From Thiorhodospira sibirica ATCC 700588 (GTDB taxonomy: Bacteria; Pseudomonadota; Gammaproteobacteria; Ectothiorhodospirales; Ectothiorhodospiraceae): a stretch of DNA of 44,448 nucleotides. The stretch is from contig NZ_MU255056.1 in the NCBI RefSeq assembly GCF_000227725.2, positions 1,762,005 through 1,806,452 on the forward strand, read 5' to 3'. A program made the position numbers and the translations under genes. The first letter of the stretch is position 1, and each line of letters opens with the position of its first letter. Under the pieces are notes generated by a model. It had not been told where the DNA came from and made no database searches. It worked only from the letters and a program-made list of their open reading frames with translations. Below, piece by piece: positions 4,987 to 36,785 of the stretch.

Positions 4987-6269
4987 TATAGCGTTTTTTT
5001 GCGCACCCGAGGCTGGCCTTTGGGCGTGCGTGGTGCGGGCGGTGTGGTATCACCGACAGGACTTTGTGGCGCTGCCTCCAGCACCTGCACCCGTAGCTCA
5101 CCTTGCGCCAAACGGACCGATAAACACTGTCCCGGGTGTGTCTGCGCGGCCTGGGTGATGATGTGCCCCTCGGCGTCCTGTAACACTGCATAGCCCCGCG
5201 CCAGGGTGGCCAAGGGACTCACCGCCTGCAAGGCACGGGCGTTGCTGGCCAGCCGGTTTTGGGCATGTGTGAGGGTAAAACGCATGTGGGTGTGCAGGCG
5301 TTGCTCCAGCTCGTCTAAACGCTGCGCCCACAAAAACAGGCGCTGTCTGGGCTGTTGCTGCTTTAAGCGATGCTGCAAATGCTGCAGTTTTGCCTGCTGC
5401 TGGCGCAATTGCGCCGCGAGACTGCGCTGCAGACGCTGGCGATACATCTGCAGCTGCGCATAAACCGCGTGTTGCTCCGGACTCAGCAACTCTGCCGCCG
5501 CCGAGGGGGTTGGGGCGCGCGCATCTGCAACAAAATCGGCAATGGTAAAATCCACCTCATGACCCACCGCACTGACCACAGGAATGCGGCTGCAGCGAAT
5601 GGCGCGGGCCAGGGCCTCATCATTAAACGCCTGCAAATCTTCCAGCGAACCGCCGCCACGGGCCAGAATCAAGGCATCACAGCAGGCATGAGCATTGGCC
5701 AAAGCCAGGGCCTGCATCAACTGCGCGGGGGCTTCGCTACCCTGTACCAGGCTGGGATAAACCCACACCGCAATAGCCGGAAAACGCCGCTGCAGGACGC
5801 TTAAAATATCGCGTAACGCCGCCCCATTGAGCGAGCTAATCACCCCAATCTGGCGCGCAAAGACAGGCAGTGGGCGCTGGTGGCGGGCATCAAACAAACC
5901 CTCTGCCTGCAGTTTGGCTTTAAGCTCGGCAAAGGCACGCTGCAAAGCCCCCTCGCCCGTGGCCTCCATCCGCTCCACCCGCAGCTGAAAACGTCCTTGC
6001 AGCGGATACAGCGTGACCTGTGCATACACTCGCACCCACTGCCCATCCGTGGGCTGAAAACGCAGCCGCAGCGCCCGCTGGCGAAACAAGGCACAGGCGA
6101 TTTGTGCCTGCTCGTCTTTCAGGGAGAAATACAGATGCCCGGAACCCGGACGCGCCAGATTGGAGATCTCACCTTCCACCCACACATAGGCAAAGTGATT
6201 TTCCAGCAGGGATTGCGATTCCTGATTCAGGCGCGAAACTGAATAAACCGTTTGCTGTTGCGAATACAT
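4986..6269 (-). CDS. xseA: Exodeoxyribonuclease VII large subunit
   Basis: XseA is the catalytic large subunit of exonuclease VII, which degrades single-stranded DNA into oligonucleotides together with several copies of XseB. The protein has 427 residues. An N-terminal OB-fold (VYSVSRLNQESQ, VEGEISNLARPGSGH) is followed by the nuclease core with GVISSLNGAALRD, LARGGGSLEDL and VSAVGHEVDFTIADFVAD. A glutamine- and arginine-rich coiled coil runs from about residue 255 to 340, and the tail is basic (PRVRKKTL). xseB is not in the window. truA follows with a one-base stop/start overlap. Confidence 0.97.
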   Translation of the reverse strand: MYSQQQTVYSVSRLNQESQSLLENHFAYVWVEGEISNLARPGSGHLYFSLKDEQAQIACALFRQRALRLRFQPTDGQWVRVYAQVTLYPLQGRFQLRVERMEATGEGALQRAFAELKAKLQAEGLFDARHQRPLPVFARQIGVISSLNGAALRDILSVLQRRFPAIAVWVYPSLVQGSEAPAQLMQALALANAHACCDALILARGGGSLEDLQAFNDEALARAIRCSRIPVVSAVGHEVDFTIADFVADARAPTPSAAAELLSPEQHAVYAQLQMYRQRLQRSLAAQLRQQQAKLQHLQHRLKQQQPRQRLFLWAQRLDELEQRLHTHMRFTLTHAQNRLASNARALQAVSPLATLARGYAVLQDAEGHIITQAAQTHPGQCLSVRLAQGELRVQVLEAAPQSPVGDTTPPAPRTPKGQPRVRKKTL

Positions 6270-7527: not shown

Positions 7528-9183
7528 TCAAACCTGGAAGCGTCCTACCCGCTCTTGCAGGTGTGCTGCCAGCCTGGCCAGCTCATCGCTGGCTAGGGCA
7601 ATCTGATCGGAACTGGCCGAGGTCTGTTCCACAGCCTGGGCGATGTTGGTGATATTGCGGTTGATTTCCTCGGTCACCGCCGACTGCTCCTCGGCGGCAC
7701 TGGCGATCTGGGCGGTTATATCACTGATGCTGTTGACGGCGCTGGTGATGGTCTTGAGAGAATCCCCCGCCTTAACAGCCTGAATCACACTCTGACCTGC
7801 CTGGCCTCGTCCCTGCTCCATTACTTTTACGGCACCGGCTGTGCCCGACTGCAGCCTTTCTATCATGGCTTGGATCTCTGTGGTAGAGGTCTGTGTGCGG
7901 CTTGCCAGGGTTCGCACCTCATCAGCCACGACCGCAAAGCCCTTCCCCTGTTCACCGGCCCGGGCGGCCTCGATGGCGGCGTTAAGGGCCAGCAGATTGG
8001 TCTGTTCGGCAATGCCACGGATCACCTCCAGCACCTTGCCGATATCGTCACTGTCTTCGGATAGTCGGGCAATCACTTGGGACGCATTCTCGACCTCCCC
8101 CGCCAGTGATTCGATGCCATGAATGGCTTCCTTAACGACCATTTCCCCTGTTGCAGCTTCCTGACGCGTGGCGGCAGCCGCATGTGCCGCCTCGGATGCA
8201 TTGCGGGATACCTCGTGTACCGTGGCCGTCATTTGGTTCATGGCAGTGGCCACCTGATCGGTTTCAGAGTGCTGTCGCCGAAGCTGCTTACGGGTATCTT
8301 CCATGGTGTTGGATAATTCCTTGGCAGCTGCCGCAAGCTGAGTAGACGCCGCGCTTGCCTGCCGCACCAACTCACGGATTTTAGCGACGAATTCATTGAA
8401 CGCTCTGGCCAGGCCGGACAACTCATCCCGCCCTTGGGCATCCAGCTGCCGGGTCAGATCACCCTCCCCGCGGGAAATGTCGTACAGGGCATCGGATAAC
8501 CGGGCAATGGGTCTCACGATAACCCGAGCCAAAAAGACAGCGACGACCATTCCTATTACCACCAGCAACAAGATACCCAGCACCATATGCGCCACCATCT
8601 GATTCACCCCCTGATTGACGATGGCGTCGATCTGCTGCCGCGATATACCCAGAAACAGGATGCCGATGACCTGATTGGAGGCATCCTTGATGGGCTCATA
8701 GACCGTAAGGTGGGATACGCCCAGGATCTGCGCCTCACCGATGTAGCGCTGCCCTGCCGAGACAGGCGCGAAGGCCGAACTGGCCTGACCCAGTTGCGTA
8801 CCCACGGCCCGACGCCCATCTGATAGACGAATACTGGTGGTCACTCGCGTGAAGTCCCGGCCATCCTGCGCAAACACCGTTGCGAGTACACCGAGCTCCT
8901 GGCCAAGCCTGTCTACCACCTCGAAACGATCATTGATCGGCTTGCCTTGAGCATCTATCAGCTTCCCGTCCACCAGACGCAACGAGCCCCACTCACGGAA
9001 GACATAATTTCCCGCCGACCAGATGTCTCCCTCGATCTTCATCCTTAGGGTATGGTCCACCAATACGTGCCCCATGCGTCCGGCTCCCTGGCCGGCAATG
9101 AGCAAGGCCGCCACACCGATCAGAATCATCAGGATCACCGTGACAGCGATCAAACGCGTGCGAATGGTCAGATTATTCCACAT
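7528..9183 (-). CDS. Methyl-accepting chemotaxis protein with periplasmic Cache domain
   Basis: This 551-residue chemoreceptor senses a ligand in the periplasm and signals to CheA/CheW. Transmembrane segment 1 is about residues 11-31. A single Cache-type sensor domain (about 40-190) includes LTVYEPIKDASNQVIGILFLGIS. Transmembrane segment 2 is about 199-221. A HAMP domain follows (RPIARLSDALYDISRGEGDL), then the methyl-accepting signalling domain with its conserved tip EQTNLLALNAAIEAARAGEQ. No che genes are in the window, so it is an orphan receptor. The ligand cannot be read from sequence; related Cache domains often bind small organic acids. Confidence 0.96.
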   Translation of the reverse strand: MWNNLTIRTRLIAVTVILMILIGVAALLIAGQGAGRMGHVLVDHTLRMKIEGDIWSAGNYVFREWGSLRLVDGKLIDAQGKPINDRFEVVDRLGQELGVLATVFAQDGRDFTRVTTSIRLSDGRRAVGTQLGQASSAFAPVSAGQRYIGEAQILGVSHLTVYEPIKDASNQVIGILFLGISRQQIDAIVNQGVNQMVAHMVLGILLLVVIGMVVAVFLARVIVRPIARLSDALYDISRGEGDLTRQLDAQGRDELSGLARAFNEFVAKIRELVRQASAASTQLAAAAKELSNTMEDTRKQLRRQHSETDQVATAMNQMTATVHEVSRNASEAAHAAAATRQEAATGEMVVKEAIHGIESLAGEVENASQVIARLSEDSDDIGKVLEVIRGIAEQTNLLALNAAIEAARAGEQGKGFAVVADEVRTLASRTQTSTTEIQAMIERLQSGTAGAVKVMEQGRGQAGQSVIQAVKAGDSLKTITSAVNSISDITAQIASAAEEQSAVTEEINRNITNIAQAVEQTSASSDQIALASDELARLAAHLQERVGRFQV

Positions 9184-9670
9184 GAGATAGATCTTCCGCG
9201 CAAAGGTTTTAGATGCCGAGGTCTATCCATCCAGCCTAAAAACGCAAATAATGGATATAAATTATGGGATCAGCGAGGAATCAATGACATACCTAAGCCT
9301 GCTGACAAGGTTTATAATAAAATTATTATATGCAATTAACCCTAAAGCATATAATGCCAAAAACCGCCAGGCCTGAAAGCGAAAAATGCTTTTTTCTTGA
9401 TCCAGATTCGGTTTGAACCGTCAACCCCATCAAAAAATCCCTTTGTGAGCTGATGTCCTTCATGCGTATATTCATGAAGCATAAATAAAAATCACACAAT
9501 ACCTGCATCATCGTCGCATCAAGCGGTATAAGCCATGCCAGGTGGGTAGCGTTCTTGGCGTTCCATCTGCCGACCATCCATGCCAGCCTTACCGTTGAAG
9601 CATATCTTGCCAAGTGAAGATGGGGCAGACTGCCGACACGAATATATCAATGGCTCGTTTTATGCCATAA
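9184..9670. other. AT-rich intergenic region, no convincing gene
   Basis: Between the chemoreceptor start and the MITE-like element the DNA is AT-richer than its neighbours. A minus-strand 95-codon frame (9326-9613) exists. Its translation resembles no family I know, it lacks a clear ribosome binding site, and its composition fits non-coding DNA. The chemoreceptor promoter should lie at the left end. I see nothing else supportable. Confidence 0.3.
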
Positions 9671-9770
9671 GAAAACGCTGATTTATTCGCTTTCTGAAAA
9701 TATAAAATAATTATGAATTAATTTCTTGTGGTTATAAAAAACCGAAAAACTCAAATAAATCAGCGTTTCC
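9671..9770. mobile_element. 100-bp MITE-like element
   Basis: A 15-base perfect inverted repeat, AAACGCTGATTTATT, sits at 9673-9687 and reversed at 9754-9768. It extends outward as GA/GG to 9671 and 9770. The core between the arms is about 66 bases, extremely AT-rich and non-coding. Exact terminal repeats around a small AT-rich core are the structure of a miniature inverted-repeat element mobilised by a full-length IS elsewhere. It could also fold as a long hairpin. Confidence 0.5.
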
Positions 9771-9786
9771 CAAAGGACGCTGCCCA

Positions 9787-9960
9787 TGCAAGCAGATCAT
9801 TTTAAACCCTCAACTGGAATACCCCGTCACACCACAAAACAGCTGTTGCTTGCCCTACCATCTGGAAAAACTGACCCAGCTGGAGACCTTTAACCTTGTG
9901 CCAAAAGGGGGCTCGGCGCTCTTGGGGCAGCATTGGCTGACGGCGCATACATGCAATTAG
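9787..9960 (+). pseudogene. Unidentified protein-like remnant
   Basis: One frame reads through about 58 codons without a stop before TAG at 9958-9960. It contains protein-like sequence such as PQLEYPVTPQNSCC and KLTQLETFNLVPKGGS. There is no start codon in frame near a ribosome binding site, and the left side runs straight into the MITE-like element. It may be the C-terminal relic of a gene truncated by that insertion. I do not recognise the family. Confidence 0.25.
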
Positions 9961-9977
9961 CAATCATTTTCATTATT
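9959..9977 (-). promoter_or_regulatory. Putative Fur box
   Basis: Read on the minus strand the site is AATAATGAAAATGATTGCT, 13 of 19 matches to the Fur consensus GATAATGATAATCATTATC. It lies about 210 bases before tonB. The distance is long, so it may act on another transcript or as an upstream site. Confidence 0.45.
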
Positions 9978-10134
9978 GCTTTTGCCTGTTTTTTGCAATA
10001 GACTCAAAAGCAATGTTTTTTGGGATAGCGGCGTGCGCGTGGGAGGTGATGGGCTTTGGCGGGTTTGCCCGGCCTTCTTGCGGGTCTGCGTTAAGGACTC
10101 CATGCGTTCTGTTGATTGACTTAATATTTTGAAT

Positions 10135-10153
10135 CAATGAGATAATCATTTAT
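10135..10153 (+). promoter_or_regulatory. Putative Fur box and promoter of tonB-exbB-exbD
   Basis: GATAATCATT at 10141-10150 matches the central and right part of the Fur consensus. A weak sigma-70-like promoter (TTGACT at 10116-10121 with GATAAT at 10141-10146, 19-base spacer) would overlap it. The site is 34 bases before the tonB ATG, which fits iron repression of the operon. Confidence 0.55.
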
Positions 10154-10186
10154 TCTTTCCTTGAATTGCCTGTTCGGCATCCTGTT

Positions 10187-11053
10187 ATGGCGTGTGAATC
10201 CGTTAAATATACCTCTTCTGTGCCCGCTGTGAGGGCTAAACCCTGGATCTGGGGGGTAATCATCAGCGTGGCGCTGCATGCTTTTGCGGTGGGGGGGATG
10301 TTGTATCAAGGAGCGGTGCGGGTCAGTGAAGCGGAATATCTGGTTGAGGTTGTTTTGCTGGAGGCGGCTTTGATCAGTGCACCAGCAGGCTTTGGCGAGG
10401 CGCGTCCGGAGGAGGAGGTCGCCGTGACAGTGGCATCGGAGAATGTGATGGCCGAGGCGCCAAGTGCTGCACAGCCGATATTGCCAACACCGCCTGTCCC
10501 GAAACCTACGCCAGAGCCCAAGCCAGAGCCCAAGCCAGAGCCCAAGCCAGAGCCCAAGCCAGAGCCCAAGCCAGAGCCCAAGCCAGAGCCCAAGCCAGAG
10601 CCGAAACCTGTGGCACGTCACACATCGCCCGAGGTCGCGGCAGCGGATCAGCGCGCTACAGCGACTGCAGAAGGCCGTACCAGTGATCTGCCCACCTCGA
10701 CCGCCGCTGCCCGCGCGAATGCCGGGAATGCGCATGGCGCTCAGAGCGGTGCTCAGCCATCATCTAATATGACCGCCCCCGTTTTCAGCGCGGCGTATCT
10801 GCATAATCCACCGCCGACCTATCCACGGGTATCGCGTCGTTTAGGTGAGCAGGGCGAGGTACAACTCCGCGTGAAGGTCAATCCTCAAGGGCGTGCCAGT
10901 CACGTCGAGATTGCCCGCTCCAGTGGGTTTGCACGGCTGGATCAGGCCGCAGCGGCGGCGGTGAGTCAGTGGCAGTTTAAACCCGCGCAACAAAACGGCC
11001 AGGCCATTGAGGCCTGGGTGATGATCCCCATTAGTTTCAACCTGGAATCCTGA
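10187..11053 (+). CDS. tonB: Energy transducer TonB
   Basis: TonB spans the periplasm and passes the energy harvested by ExbB/ExbD to outer-membrane receptors. An N-terminal anchor (WIWGVIISVALHAFAVGG) is followed by a proline-rich linker with eight PEPK repeats. The C-terminal TonB domain (about 200-288) has YPRVSRRLGEQGEVQLRVKV and ARLDQAAAAAVSQWQFKPA. A TTG at 10166 would add seven residues; I prefer ATG 10187, but neither has a strong ribosome binding site. exbB begins 10 bases after the stop. Two Fur-like boxes upstream imply iron control. Confidence 0.93.
   Translation: MACESVKYTSSVPAVRAKPWIWGVIISVALHAFAVGGMLYQGAVRVSEAEYLVEVVLLEAALISAPAGFGEARPEEEVAVTVASENVMAEAPSAAQPILPTPPVPKPTPEPKPEPKPEPKPEPKPEPKPEPKPEPKPEPKPVARHTSPEVAAADQRATATAEGRTSDLPTSTAAARANAGNAHGAQSGAQPSSNMTAPVFSAAYLHNPPPTYPRVSRRLGEQGEVQLRVKVNPQGRASHVEIARSSGFARLDQAAAAAVSQWQFKPAQQNGQAIEAWVMIPISFNLES
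10511..10606 (+). repeat. 12-bp tandem repeat encoding PEPK in tonB
   Basis: Seven perfect copies of CCAGAGCCCAAG and one diverged copy (CCAGAGCCGAAA) run head to tail. Each encodes Pro-Glu-Pro-Lys in the periplasm-spanning rod of TonB. Because the unit is a multiple of three, gain or loss of copies alters rod length without breaking the frame. Confidence 0.95.
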
Positions 11054-11063
11054 TTGAATTATT

Positions 11064-11786
11064 ATGAATATTGCACTGGTTTTTGAGCATGGTGATTGGG
11101 TGCTGATTGGCGTGTTTTTGACATTATTTGCCATGTCTGTGATCACCTGGGCCTTGATCTTTAATAAATCGCTGCTCAGTTGGCGCCTGCGCCGGGGCAA
11201 TGCGGCATTTGCGCAGGCCTTTTGGCAGTCGCATAGCGCATCACAGGCCTTGTGGCTGGCGCACGAGAGCAAGACCCCCTTGGCCGAGATTGCGCAGGCG
11301 GGGCTTTTGGGGCAACAACATTACCGTCGGCGCGATGGCTCGACCTTGCAAGCAGCCTGCTCGATGGATGAGTTTTTGGTGCGAGCCATTCGCAATGCGA
11401 TGACCAAGGCACTCGCCCGCCAACAGTCCGGCCTGACCTTTCTCGCCTCGGTGGGCAGTACTGCGCCGTTTATCGGTTTATTTGGGACGGTCTGGGGGAT
11501 TTACAATGCGCTGATGGATATTGCCGCAGCAGGCAGCGCCAGCATGGATGTGGTGGCCGGGCCTTTGGGGGAAGCCCTGGTTGCCACGGCAGCTGGCTTG
11601 GCGGCCGCGATTCCGGCAGTGCTAGCCTACAATGCCTTTAATCGCTTCAATCGCACCCTATCGCAGGAAATGGACGCCTTTGCCTATGATCTTCATGCCT
11701 ATCTGACCACCGGCAGCGCAGTGAACATGGGCGCATCGGAAACATCTGCTCCCCCTGCCACGACTGCGATGGTGGAGGAGCGCTGA
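11064..11786 (+). CDS. exbB: Biopolymer transport protein ExbB (MotA/TolQ/ExbB family)
   Basis: ExbB forms the inner-membrane proton channel with ExbD and energises TonB. The 240-residue protein has three membrane segments: about residues 12-34 (GDWVLIGVFLTLFAMSV), about 130-155 (FLASVGSTAPFIGLFGTVWG) and about 170-195 (LVATAAGLAAAIPAVLAY). The last two carry the MotA/TolQ/ExbB signature. It is spaced 10 bases from tonB, and its TGA overlaps the exbD start in TGATG, so the three genes form one operon. Confidence 0.95.
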   Translation: MNIALVFEHGDWVLIGVFLTLFAMSVITWALIFNKSLLSWRLRRGNAAFAQAFWQSHSASQALWLAHESKTPLAEIAQAGLLGQQHYRRRDGSTLQAACSMDEFLVRAIRNAMTKALARQQSGLTFLASVGSTAPFIGLFGTVWGIYNALMDIAAAGSASMDVVAGPLGEALVATAAGLAAAIPAVLAYNAFNRFNRTLSQEMDAFAYDLHAYLTTGSAVNMGASETSAPPATTAMVEER

Positions 11787-18658: not shown

Positions 18659-19547
18659 GAGGCTGTTTGGAAATTAATCGCGTAATGGCTTAACCTACGA
18701 TTTTTTCTAGGAAGTGGCCCACATGCCCTAGAAATGCAGCAAGAAGATTCGCAAAAAAACGCTACCCGAGTCACCTCAGCGACGGCGCCTGGAAGGCGAT
18801 CAAGCCGCTGTTGCCGGGCGCCCCGGTCGGGCGCCCTCGTAAGCTCAGCATGCGCCAAGTCATCAATGCGATCTTCTATGTCCTGCAGACGGGCTGCCAG
18901 TGGCGTCAGCTGCCGCGCGACTTTCCTGCCTGGTCGGCAGTGTACTATGACTTCAATCGCTGGCGGCGCGATGGAACCTGGCAGCGTCTTTATGACAGGC
19001 TACGCGCTCGGCTACGGCAACGCCACGGGCGTCACAAGCATCCAAGCGCCGGGTGTCTGGACAACCAAAGCGTCAAGACCACGGCGATCCCTGGTGAGCG
19101 CGGCTATGACGCCGGCAAGAAGATCAAGGGCCGCAAACGCCATCTTCTGGTCGATACCCTGGGGCTGGTGCTGGCCGTCGTTGTCACCGCCGCCAGCGTG
19201 CAAGACCGTGATGGGGCGCGCCAACTCCTGTGCCATCTCCCCGGTCATTGCAAAAAGCTGCGCAAAATCTGGGTTGACGGCGGCTACAGTGGACGCCTGG
19301 TTGACTGGGTTGCCCAGCGCTTTCGTTTCGTCTTGACGGTGGTCTTGCGTCCCAAGGAGCGCCGAGGGTTTGTTTTGTTGCCGCGACGCTGGGTTGTTGA
19401 GCGGACCTTTGGCTGGCTGAACCACTCACGCCGTCTGAGCAAGGACTACGAGCGCTTGATGTCGAGCAGCGAAGCCTGGATTTATCTCGCAATGATTCGA
19501 CTGATGGCTAACCGCTTGGTTTGAGGCGGTAGTTTCCAAACAGCTTC
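18659..19547 (+). mobile_element. IS5-family (IS427 subgroup) insertion sequence, 889 bp, complete
   Basis: The element has terminal inverted repeats GAGGCTGTTTGGAAA (left) and its near-complement TTTCCAAACAGCTTC (right). A 3-bp TGA duplication flanks it at 18656-18658 and 19548-19550. Size, end sequence and a TNA-type target duplication fit the IS427 subgroup. It carries one transposase read through a frameshift. Intact ends and an exact duplication imply recent insertion. Its host gene is a relic transposase, so the insertion itself did little harm. Confidence 0.88.
18734..19524 (+). CDS. IS5-family transposase, needs -1 frameshift at A7
   Basis: The DDE transposase begins at ATG 18734 (MQQEDSQK). 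At a run of seven A (18753-18759) the frame must slip by -1 to continue KRYPSHLSDGAWKAIKPLLP and GRPRKLSMRQVINAIFYVLQ. The remaining catalytic sequence shows the first aspartate in LDNQSVKTT, the second in WVDGGYSG and the glutamate in VVERTFGWLNHSRRL. Without slippage the frame lacks any ATG until an internal TTG at 18811, which would cut off the conserved N-terminus. Homopolymer slippage, ribosomal or transcriptional, is common in this subgroup, so I treat the gene as functional. A sequencing error in the A-run is the alternative. Confidence 0.8.
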
Positions 19548-19624
19548 TGAGAATGATCGAGAGATCTTTCTAAAAACGGTCATCCCCAGTCGAAAGGCCA
19601 CCAAGACATTTTTAGGAGGGTAGC

Positions 19625-20208
19625 ATGCCCAAGCCCAAATTAGATCCCGAGGAGCAAGAGCTTCTGGAGGCATACGAGTCCGGAGAGCTCGAGTCAGATC
19701 TGGATGCTGATCGTCGGGAGTACTTGTCGAAGGCAGCGGAAGAAGCGTTCAAGAAAGACAAGCGGATCAATATACGTATCTCCAGTCGCGACTTGGAAGC
19801 ACTTCAACGTCGGGCGCTGGAAGAGGGGCTTTAACGGTTCGCTAAAAAGTTTTCAAATGTTTTTGTATCTTCACTCACATATTGCGCAGATTGACCACTC
19901 GTCGCGAGTGCCTATCGCCTTGGCTTTTCCGCCCGCTTATCGCACCATTTGCTTCGGCGTGATAACCAAGCACCACCGGTCGCGACGCGCTCAGGCGAGA
20001 CCTTAAACGCACGCAAGAGTTAGATAAGACGGGTTCGCCCGCACTGGCGTTGACGGCGTGAACAGATTTATTCAGCTTCGTGCAAGTTTGGGTAGGTTTT
20101 TATGAGCGGCTTCCTTACCAGTCTCTGGTATCAAGTGTTCTGCACAAGTATGTTTCCGGCGGGCTCATGGACGTCTCTGCTAACAAGTCAGGCCAGCGGA
20201 CGCGCTAA
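19625..20208 (+). pseudogene. CopG-like antitoxin gene split by a 276-bp insertion
   Basis: A strong ribosome binding site (TTAGGAGGG) precedes ATG 19625. The first 69 codons encode KPKLDPEEQELLEAYESGEL and KKDKRINIRISSRDLEALQR, the start of a CopG/ribbon-helix-helix type antitoxin. It breaks at LEEGL (19831). The missing end is found at 20113-20208 (PYQSLVSSVLHKYVSGG), so the ancestral protein read EEGLPYQSLVSSVLHKYVSG. Direct GGCTT copies at both junctions mark a target duplication. The 5' part still makes a short protein containing the DNA-binding-type strand, so residual repression is possible. The partner toxin gene is missing; upstream lies IS debris. Confidence 0.82.
19832..20107. mobile_element. 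276-bp insertion of unknown type flanked by GGCTT
   Basis: Bounded by GGCTT at 19827-19831 and at 20108-20112, this DNA interrupts the antitoxin reading frame exactly. It has no clear terminal inverted repeats and no convincing gene. It contains a CACTCGTCGCGAGTG palindrome (about 19895-19909) and a GTTAGAT motif near 20019. It could be a small non-autonomous element or an IS remnant. I do not recognise it. Confidence 0.55.
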
Positions 20209-20233: not shown

Positions 20234-20579
20234 GCAGGAAAGCTTCACAGAAGGAGGTGAATATCTAATATATCAATCTCAATTATCGGTCCCTACCGAC
20301 AAGCCAGAAGGCGCATTAGCGCTGACGATCGGCCCTGGGCAGATGATCTTCGTTCGGTAGTCCTGTAGAAAGTAGTGAATGGTTATTCCGCGGTGACAGG
20401 CAAGGTTTGGTTATAATGGTGAACGAAATACCAGATAGCTCCAATAACGAGAGGGCTTTTCTAACTAAACGAGACACGCGTTGCCGATTGGCGCGCTGTC
20501 CGGGTCACGGTTAGGGTCTGGTGGTGATGACCAAGGCTTTCGCATTGGCCCTTAGTTTGAGTATCATGGAAACACAGGA
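20234..20579. other. Island DNA without a recognised gene
   Basis: This stretch between the attC-like site and the recognisable intron fragment has no open frame worth calling. A ribosome-binding-like AAGGAGGTGAATATC at about 20250 has no following ATG in reach. Part of it may be further intron sequence, because the intron core would continue leftward here. I cannot place its domains with confidence. Confidence 0.3.
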
Positions 20580-20953
20580 CGCTATAGAGCAGATCTCGCC
20601 GGAATAAGAACATAAACTTTCAGTCCATAACCGCCGCATTTACCCGATCCCCTGCACCTGATGGGCTTCGTCACCTTGTGCTGACTCGCCCGGGGACTGA
20701 GCCTTATATGCGATTTACTCGCCCCATCCCTGGGGCTCGCCCTTCGGGCTAGGCTGCGGCTGTTCAAAATCGCTCCCGGCGATTTTATCTGTACGTTGGC
20801 TCACACCTTTGCGCTCGGGCTTCCTTCAGACATTCCCTCACGGGTTTGCCCTTGCCGTCGGCGAGTAGTTACAGTCGTCCACAGTGTGGACATCACAGGT
20901 ACTCCTACAGGGGACTTTCACCCCATCAGTTCATGCCCATGCCGGGCGTACAC
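20580..20953 (-). ncRNA. Group II intron, 5' fragment (domain I region)
   Basis: Read on the minus strand from 20953, the sequence starts GTGTACGCCCGGCATGGG, followed by GGGGTGAAAGTCCCC. It continues with GAGGGAATGTCTGAAGGAAG, CATATAAGGCTC, GGTGACGAAGCCC and finally ATGTTCTTATTCCGG. These are hallmark conserved segments of bacterial group II intron domain I and following core, in the correct order. No intron reverse transcriptase and no domain V follow on this side, so it is truncated. An extra roughly 70-base GC-rich insert lies in the core (about 20712-20785). The exon at 20954 onward leads into the HNH gene on the opposite strand. Confidence 0.72.
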
Positions 20954-21024
20954 AATCGGCTGTTGTCGGACGTGCCTATGCTGCGCTCCGGCATGCCGCA
21001 AAGCCGGGCGTTGCATAATAAAAA

Positions 21025-21768
21025 ATGGCATTAGAACTAACAAAAGAACAATGGATTGAGATTTTGCTAAATTCTGAACTTACAAAAGAAGTCGATCTGG
21101 CCATGTTCCAGGCAATCTACTCTTTTGATGGCCACAAAGCCTATGCTAGTCAAGTCGGCATGTTGCTTGGTTACAAAGGGAAGTCGCCTCATGCGCCGCT
21201 AAATTCTGAAATCGGGCTATACGCAAAACGAATCGCTAAACTCTATGACATAGAATTAACAAAAAGAACCGAGAAGAAATATAAGTTCTGGGATCTTTTC
21301 TTTAACGGCTGGGAAGAGGGAAGGTATTTTATATGGGAGCTTAAATCACCTCTGGTAGAGGCGTTAAGAGAGTGTAAATTAACAGGCGAGCACCCATACC
21401 CGGAAGAAATAGAAATACCGGAAAGCACTGAGAGTCTGTCTGAAGGGTTAAAAAAGACAGTTATAGTAAATACCTATGAGAGAAATTCAAGAGCAAGGAA
21501 TCTCTGCATTAACCATTGGGGTACAAAATGTAGTGTCTGTGGATTCGATTTTGAAACAATCTATGGCAATTTATGGGCCGGTTATATACACGTTCATCAT
21601 TTAATACCCGTTTCAAAAATAGGCAAGGCTTATAAAGTTGATCCTGTAAATGATTTGTGTCCCATTTGTCCAAATTGCCATGCAATGGTTCATGCAAAAA
21701 GTCCTCCGTTATCAATCACTGAACTGCAAGAAATCATGGAGTCTGTGAATGTCACAAACTCTCAGTAA
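21025..21768 (+). CDS. HNH endonuclease, horizontally acquired
   Basis: This 247-residue protein ends in an HNH nuclease domain (about residues 165-235): CSVCGFDF, then IHVHHLIPVSKIG, then NDLCPICPNCHAMVHA. This gives the catalytic His pair, the structural cysteines and the final His. The N-terminal 110 residues (DLAMFQAIYSFDGHKAYASQ, LYAKRIAKLY) resemble the extension seen in McrA-type putative restriction nucleases, so defence against modified DNA is plausible but unproven. The gene is clearly AT-richer and uses ATA and AAA codons unlike its neighbours. There is no ribosome binding site before ATG 21025. It lies between two group II intron fragments that run on the opposite strand. Confidence 0.85.
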   Translation: MALELTKEQWIEILLNSELTKEVDLAMFQAIYSFDGHKAYASQVGMLLGYKGKSPHAPLNSEIGLYAKRIAKLYDIELTKRTEKKYKFWDLFFNGWEEGRYFIWELKSPLVEALRECKLTGEHPYPEEIEIPESTESLSEGLKKTVIVNTYERNSRARNLCINHWGTKCSVCGFDFETIYGNLWAGYIHVHHLIPVSKIGKAYKVDPVNDLCPICPNCHAMVHAKSPPLSITELQEIMESVNVTNSQ

Positions 21769-21776
21769 ATCGCATA

Positions 21777-21875
21777 ATCGGATAGCCGGGGGTTTTTCTC
21801 CCCCGGCCTCCACAACACCCCGCATGTGGGTCTGCACGGGGCGTTTCCTCTGGAGTTCAAAGGAGAATGCTGATA
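21777..21875 (-). ncRNA. Group II intron, 3' end (domains V and VI)
   Basis: On the minus strand, a stem of the form GCCCCGTGCAGACCCACATG then CGGGGTGTT has the layout of catalytic domain V. It is followed by GTGGAGGCCGGGGG, a short loop and CCCCCGGCTATCCGAT, a domain VI hairpin with the usual intron 3' terminus. The remainder of the intron, including the maturase gene, is missing or unrecognisable upstream (21876-21980). The intron ends nine bases after the HNH stop codon. The exact last base is uncertain by one or two positions. Confidence 0.72.
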
Positions 21876-21982
21876 TGGTGAGCTTCAACGCGGCTTATCC
21901 AACGCATTGCCAAGGCCGTTTCACTTTTGAAGGCGATCAGAAGAAAATGTCTCTGCTTGGCGGTTGATAAGGTAGGCGATAT

Positions 21983-36397: not shown

Positions 36398-36701
36398 GCT
36401 ACGATCTTGCAGCCGCCGGAAATAAGTGCAGGCCTTCCACCTGCCGGGCCGTGAGGCTCTGCCCTTACGGGCCTGGTGACGGAGCCTTGCGGCTCGCTCC
36501 CCTCGGGCATGTGCATCACCGGCTCCCGCTTGCGCGGCGGCTGAAACCTTCGGCGTTTTGCCTTGCGCCAGCATGATCTCAGCCTTCCAGTGTCCGGGAC
36601 TGAGGAAGCATCCCGGAGTGGGTCTTAACGACCTGTGATGCACGGAGCGGGTTTGCACCGCTTGCCCTGGTCAACCGAGCTTGCTTTCACCTGCCTGCCG
36701 C

Positions 36702-36754
36702 GCCTGCCTGCCGCGACGCACGCGGCGCAGGCAGGTGCGTCGCGGCAGGCAGGC
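36702..36754. repeat. Perfect 20-bp-arm palindrome with 13-base loop
   Basis: The left arm at 36702-36721 starts GCCTGCCTGCCGCG. The right arm at 36735-36754 is its exact complement. The loop is GCGGCGCAGGCAG. A second copy of CTGCCTGCCGCG directly before the left arm (36691-36702) makes a tandem-plus-inverted arrangement, so several alternative folds are possible. Stability in RNA would be very high. Confidence 0.9.
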
Positions 36755-36785
36755 AAGCTCCGCCCTTCAGGGCGGGGTAGTTGAC
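36755..36785 (+). ncRNA. IS200/IS605-style right-end hairpin
   Basis: The stem CCGCCC-TTCA-GGGCGG (36760-36775), preceded by AAGCT and followed by GGTAGTTGAC, closely resembles the right-end tail of IS605-type TnpB elements. It follows directly on the long palindrome. No tnpB or tnpA remains. The base just after GTTGAC would be the start of flanking target DNA. Confidence 0.45.

Follow-up and report, generated by a model that had tools for sequence, protein, structure and literature searches.

The HNH nuclease gene that stands between two group II intron fragments in Thiorhodospira sibirica ATCC 700588 is best explained, with a probability of about 0.9, as an integron cassette in a decayed, integrase-less cassette array (CALIN type), in which the attC site on each side of the gene has been hit by an intron. 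The locus is a decayed piece of known systems, not a new one. It was analysed within a window of 44,448 nucleotides, the whole stretch of DNA under study, to which all coordinates given without a locus or contig name refer. The genome comprises 3.2 Mb in five contigs. The window occupies positions 1762005–1806452 of contig C4, which has a length of 2.94 Mb, and nothing points to an assembly error, which the first-pass annotation had considered as a possible source of the two fragments.

The first-pass annotation had also allowed for the case that no intron model would match, but a covariance search yielded a match of the Rfam model RF02001 (group II D1-D4-3) to the minus strand at 20847–20608 (63.8 bits, E = 1.4e-10). 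Since the D5-D6 model RF00029 gave no Rfam match on the 3' fragment, even at E ≤ 5, this fragment was identified via its copies: its 148 bases are 80–90% identical to many D5-D6 ends in the same genome and in relatives. It is located at 21777–21924 on the minus strand, with homology extending perhaps to 21927, and corresponds to nt 682–829 of an 829-nt full-length, ORF-less copy whose 5' part is gone. The second fragment (20478–20951, minus strand) corresponds to nt 1 to ~544 of the same form and has lost the rest, including D5-D6. Both introns are therefore incomplete, as had been proposed, and neither forms a complete six-domain ribozyme. Approximately 137 nt (nt ~545–681 of the full-length form) are absent from both fragments; this stretch overlaps the RF01998 element and, judging from its pairing, probably holds D2/D3. 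Domain V of the 3' fragment (21816–21843, minus strand) has retained its CGC triad at 21843–21841. Its helix has some covariation support from two pairs that vary on both sides among the copies, and the window copy shows two mispairs in the upper helix, a sign of decay. In their present state, the window introns are incapable of autonomous splicing or movement.

The 3' end had previously been placed correctly at 21777, nine bases from the HNH stop (21768). The 5' end had likewise been recognised, but it lies at 20951 instead of 20953, because the aligned intron copies begin with GTACGCCC directly after TTGT. The stretch described at the time (20580–21875) does contain intron-like sequence, which extends slightly beyond it, from 20478 to 21924. 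The fragments had further been described as oppositely oriented, whereas both are on the minus strand and the element opposed to them is the HNH gene on the plus strand.

In the window, the 5' junction reads TTGT/GTACGCCC and the 3' junction CCGAT/T (CCGAT/TATGC), with the slash marking the intron boundary. Among the aligned copies, TTGT is found at 15 of 17 five-prime junctions and GAT/T at 16 of 17 three-prime junctions. All copies, including the one in a class 1 integron, start with GUACG instead of the consensus GUGYG. Folding of the upstream exons revealed attC-like hairpins with a bulged base for many copies. The marks of group IIC-attC introns are a TTGT/T target in attC, an orientation opposite to the cassettes and a CGC triad (PMC7923331). 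Since the window introns show all three, they were assigned to this group, as truncated representatives of the known IIC-attC lineage that are fragments and not functional members.

The HNH gene (21025–21768, plus strand) had been regarded as AT-rich and foreign, in agreement with its G+C content of 39.4%, compared to 56.2% for the window and the lowest value among 875 sliding windows. An uninterrupted HNH locus, which the first-pass annotation had suggested looking for, was found on a contig (L028) of an Anaerolineae MAG, within a cassette array that is free of introns; Rfam detected none on this contig. This copy, which is frameshifted, is 90.6% identical over window positions 21012–21777 and loses its similarity precisely where the intron is inserted in the window, at 21777. 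It is followed by an intact attC site (GCATAAC...GTTATGT), a small cassette, a BrnT/BrnA-like pair and then a VapBC-like pair on the opposite strand, with names assigned by reading the sequences. The HNH gene thus exists as an uninterrupted integron gene cassette, consisting of a single ORF and an attC site, and the intron in the window split this attC at R'', leaving the remnant GCATA at 21772–21776 (plus strand). On the other side, the attC of the preceding cassette (20952–21016, plus strand), with a palindromic core ending in GTTGCAT whose pairing was assigned by eye, carries the second intron in R'' at TTGT/T. This site folds weakly in a minimum-energy model (z = -1.5), as do several others; attC sites were called by motif and pairing and not by a calibrated attC model. 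The placement of the introns in the attC sites of cassettes explains their spacing, orientation and common target.

The same arrangement was found in the main array of the genome (C4:751–759 kb), in which introns are located between HigBA-like, EcoRII-like, Vsr and methylase cassettes. The occurrence of more complete introns with cassettes between them elsewhere in the genome makes the earlier suggestion of one tandem array with deleted middles unnecessary. Introns are opposed to the cassettes at locus L018 as well. At the latter, an EcoRII-type restriction gene, Vsr and a C5-methylase lie together between introns of the cassette array (8732–11663, minus strand), and positions 5926–6025, inside one intron copy, read as N. 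A search for IntI1 at E ≤ 1e-20 gave no match in the T. sibirica genome, compared with matches in 15 of 40 searched genomes. A family model of integron integrases had no match in this genome either, not even to ordinary tyrosine recombinases, a result that is weak alone and agrees with the IntI1 search. The cassettes are thus present without a detected integrase, as in a CALIN.

Full-length ORF-less copies of ~829 nt were detected in relatives from the same family (L099, L100 and L101), as were longer copies in which a reverse transcriptase/maturase frame is open (L102, L103, L105 and L110). The protein encoded by the longer copies is a group II RT/maturase (TIGR04416, 399 bits) with GsI-IIC RT as its best solved match (E = 5e-129), and the proteins of these related introns are class C. 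Relatives of this protein on plasmids are ~54% identical, and the gene for one of them lies in the aadA1 attC of a class 1 integron that also carries VIM-2. No intron-encoded protein is present in the window and no close one was found in the genome, which contains fourteen further stretches matching the introns. We tentatively suggest, while regarding it as rather doubtful, that the ORF-less 829-nt form may represent a non-autonomous attC-targeting intron family that has become dispersed in trans within a bacterial family and that, by providing the same sequence in many attC sites, may let cassettes (notably restriction and toxin-antitoxin cassettes) move by homologous recombination in integrase-less genomes. 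The ORF-less attC introns of this family would offer a suitable setting for testing whether introns can take over cassette movement from a lost integrase.

The HNH gene encodes a protein of 247 aa with a predicted winged-helix N-terminal domain and a McrA-like HNH domain. The latter was matched by the Pfam HNH model (E = 4e-7) and by the PADLOC type IV restriction model mREase_IV (E = 2.1e-6), which covers the HNH part only; among solved proteins, the McrA restriction enzyme (EcoKMcrA, PDB 6ghc, E = 1.3e-4) comes closest. Residues C169, C172, H191, H192, N217, C218 and H219 are invariant across six sequences. An AlphaFold model (mean pLDDT 77, pTM 0.49) shows a winged-helix-like front domain (residues 6–119) followed by the HNH half. 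Foldseek returned no significant match to this model, and a structure search with residues 6–119 gave just common winged-helix matches (Z up to 7.8), which are not distinctive. The protein had been thought to be a restriction or homing enzyme. Restriction fits better, with McrA as the nearest solved protein, and is its likeliest function, which this small DNA nuclease most likely still performs. A role as a homing enzyme was rejected, because no intron was detected by Rfam at the loci of the six relatives examined (L026–L031).

On the left, the intron break is fused, with the microhomology CAACG, to a C-terminal relic of an IS1-type transposase (20355–20481, minus strand), whose translation was compared with the copy at L018; this C-terminal part also adjoins the main array. 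An antitoxin-like ORF without Pfam match (19624–20200, plus strand) is possibly the relic of a second cassette. It appears to be broken at ~19831–20110 by a 280-base dispersed repeat that is matched fully or partially 16 times in the genome. An IS5-type transposase is located at 18811–19551, and a stretch with 98.9% identity is found close to a further intron relic (L021:1676–2227). At the right border, truncation of an upstream gene was considered and rejected, as the sequence before the pilin-like gene (21983) is unlike the preceding gene in relatives. Farther away, the window contains a HEARO (IscB guide-type) RNA at 36491–36785 (minus strand, 89.7 bits), next to which no IscB gene was seen. 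In the genome, 10 HEARO RNAs score above the cut-off; of five other HEARO loci checked by eye, one (L128, C5:43206) adjoins an IscB-like ORF.

According to the proposed origin, the HNH gene would have arrived as an integron cassette, after which each of the two flanking attC sites would have received a copy of an attC-targeting group IIC intron by reverse splicing into its bottom strand at TTGT/T. Insertion into the bottom strand at this site would place both introns opposite to the gene. The introns may have been mobilised in trans by an intron protein that is now absent here. Later rearrangements at the outer sides would then have deprived one intron of its 5' part and the other of its 3' part, joining one of the breaks to the IS1-type relic. 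Serial intron insertion around a mobile nuclease gene, as originally proposed, was thus essentially right, but the integron cassette and its attC sites had been missed.

The fragments, which do not overlap, jointly make up most of the 829-nt intron, with ~137 nt missing between the breaks, as would be expected if they derived from a single hybrid intron. Homologous recombination of the introns flanking the HNH cassette would in that case have released a circle, which was inserted after opening inside the intron. We consider this improbable. The proximity of the two breaks carries no significance, as we estimate that random breaks would lie this close about one time in three. The microhomology at the fusion to the IS1 relic suggests an ordinary deletion, and the main array already has introns on both sides of cassettes. 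Far less probable still is a working circularly permuted group II ribozyme (D5-D6, linker, D1-D4) that forms RNA circles from an antisense HNH cassette linker. The order of the fragments on the minus strand fits the published cases (PMC8637638) and both sides have kept intact splice-site sequences, but the ~137 nt missing from both fragments overlap RF01998, D5 has two mispairs in its upper helix and 58 genomes yielded no second copy of the entire unit with its cassette. With nt ~545–681 missing, the full series of core domains in the order D5-D6-D1-D2-D3-D4 is not present. Insertion of two introns into neighbouring attC sites remains the preferred explanation, and the puzzling gene between two intron halves would arise from two known mobile systems with a common target site.

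The closest known counterpart of the introns is the group IIC-attC intron of the Pseudomonas plasmid NZ_MF564290, which occupies the aadA1 attC of a class 1 integron and is inserted at TTGT/T and opposite to the cassette genes, as here. It has the 5' end GTACGCCC, the 3' end CGGCTAYCCGAT (CGGCTAYCCGAT/TA) and the CGC triad in D5 in common with the window introns, and its protein is 54% identical to that of their close relatives. In contrast to this intron, the window copies are truncated and of the ORF-less form, and no cognate protein was found in their own genome. For the HNH protein, the known counterparts are the McrA-type HNH restriction nucleases (PDB 6ghc), which are alike in the C-terminal HNH domain (E = 1.3e-4), whereas the N-terminal half is here predicted to form a winged helix, and no similarity of its sequence to McrA was detected. 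The order of the domains recalls that of circularly permuted group II ribozymes (PMC8637638), with D5-D6 before D1 on the strand, but in the window an entire gene cassette takes the place of the linker, part of the core is missing and two neighbouring insertions are enough to account for the order. As an array, the locus resembles the intron-bearing CALIN of Halorhodospira halochloris (PMC7923331), which is likewise integrase-less, rich in toxin-antitoxin genes and interspersed with truncated group II introns; the introns of H. halochloris encode class E (IIB) proteins, whereas those of the window belong to class C-attC by their target and relatives.
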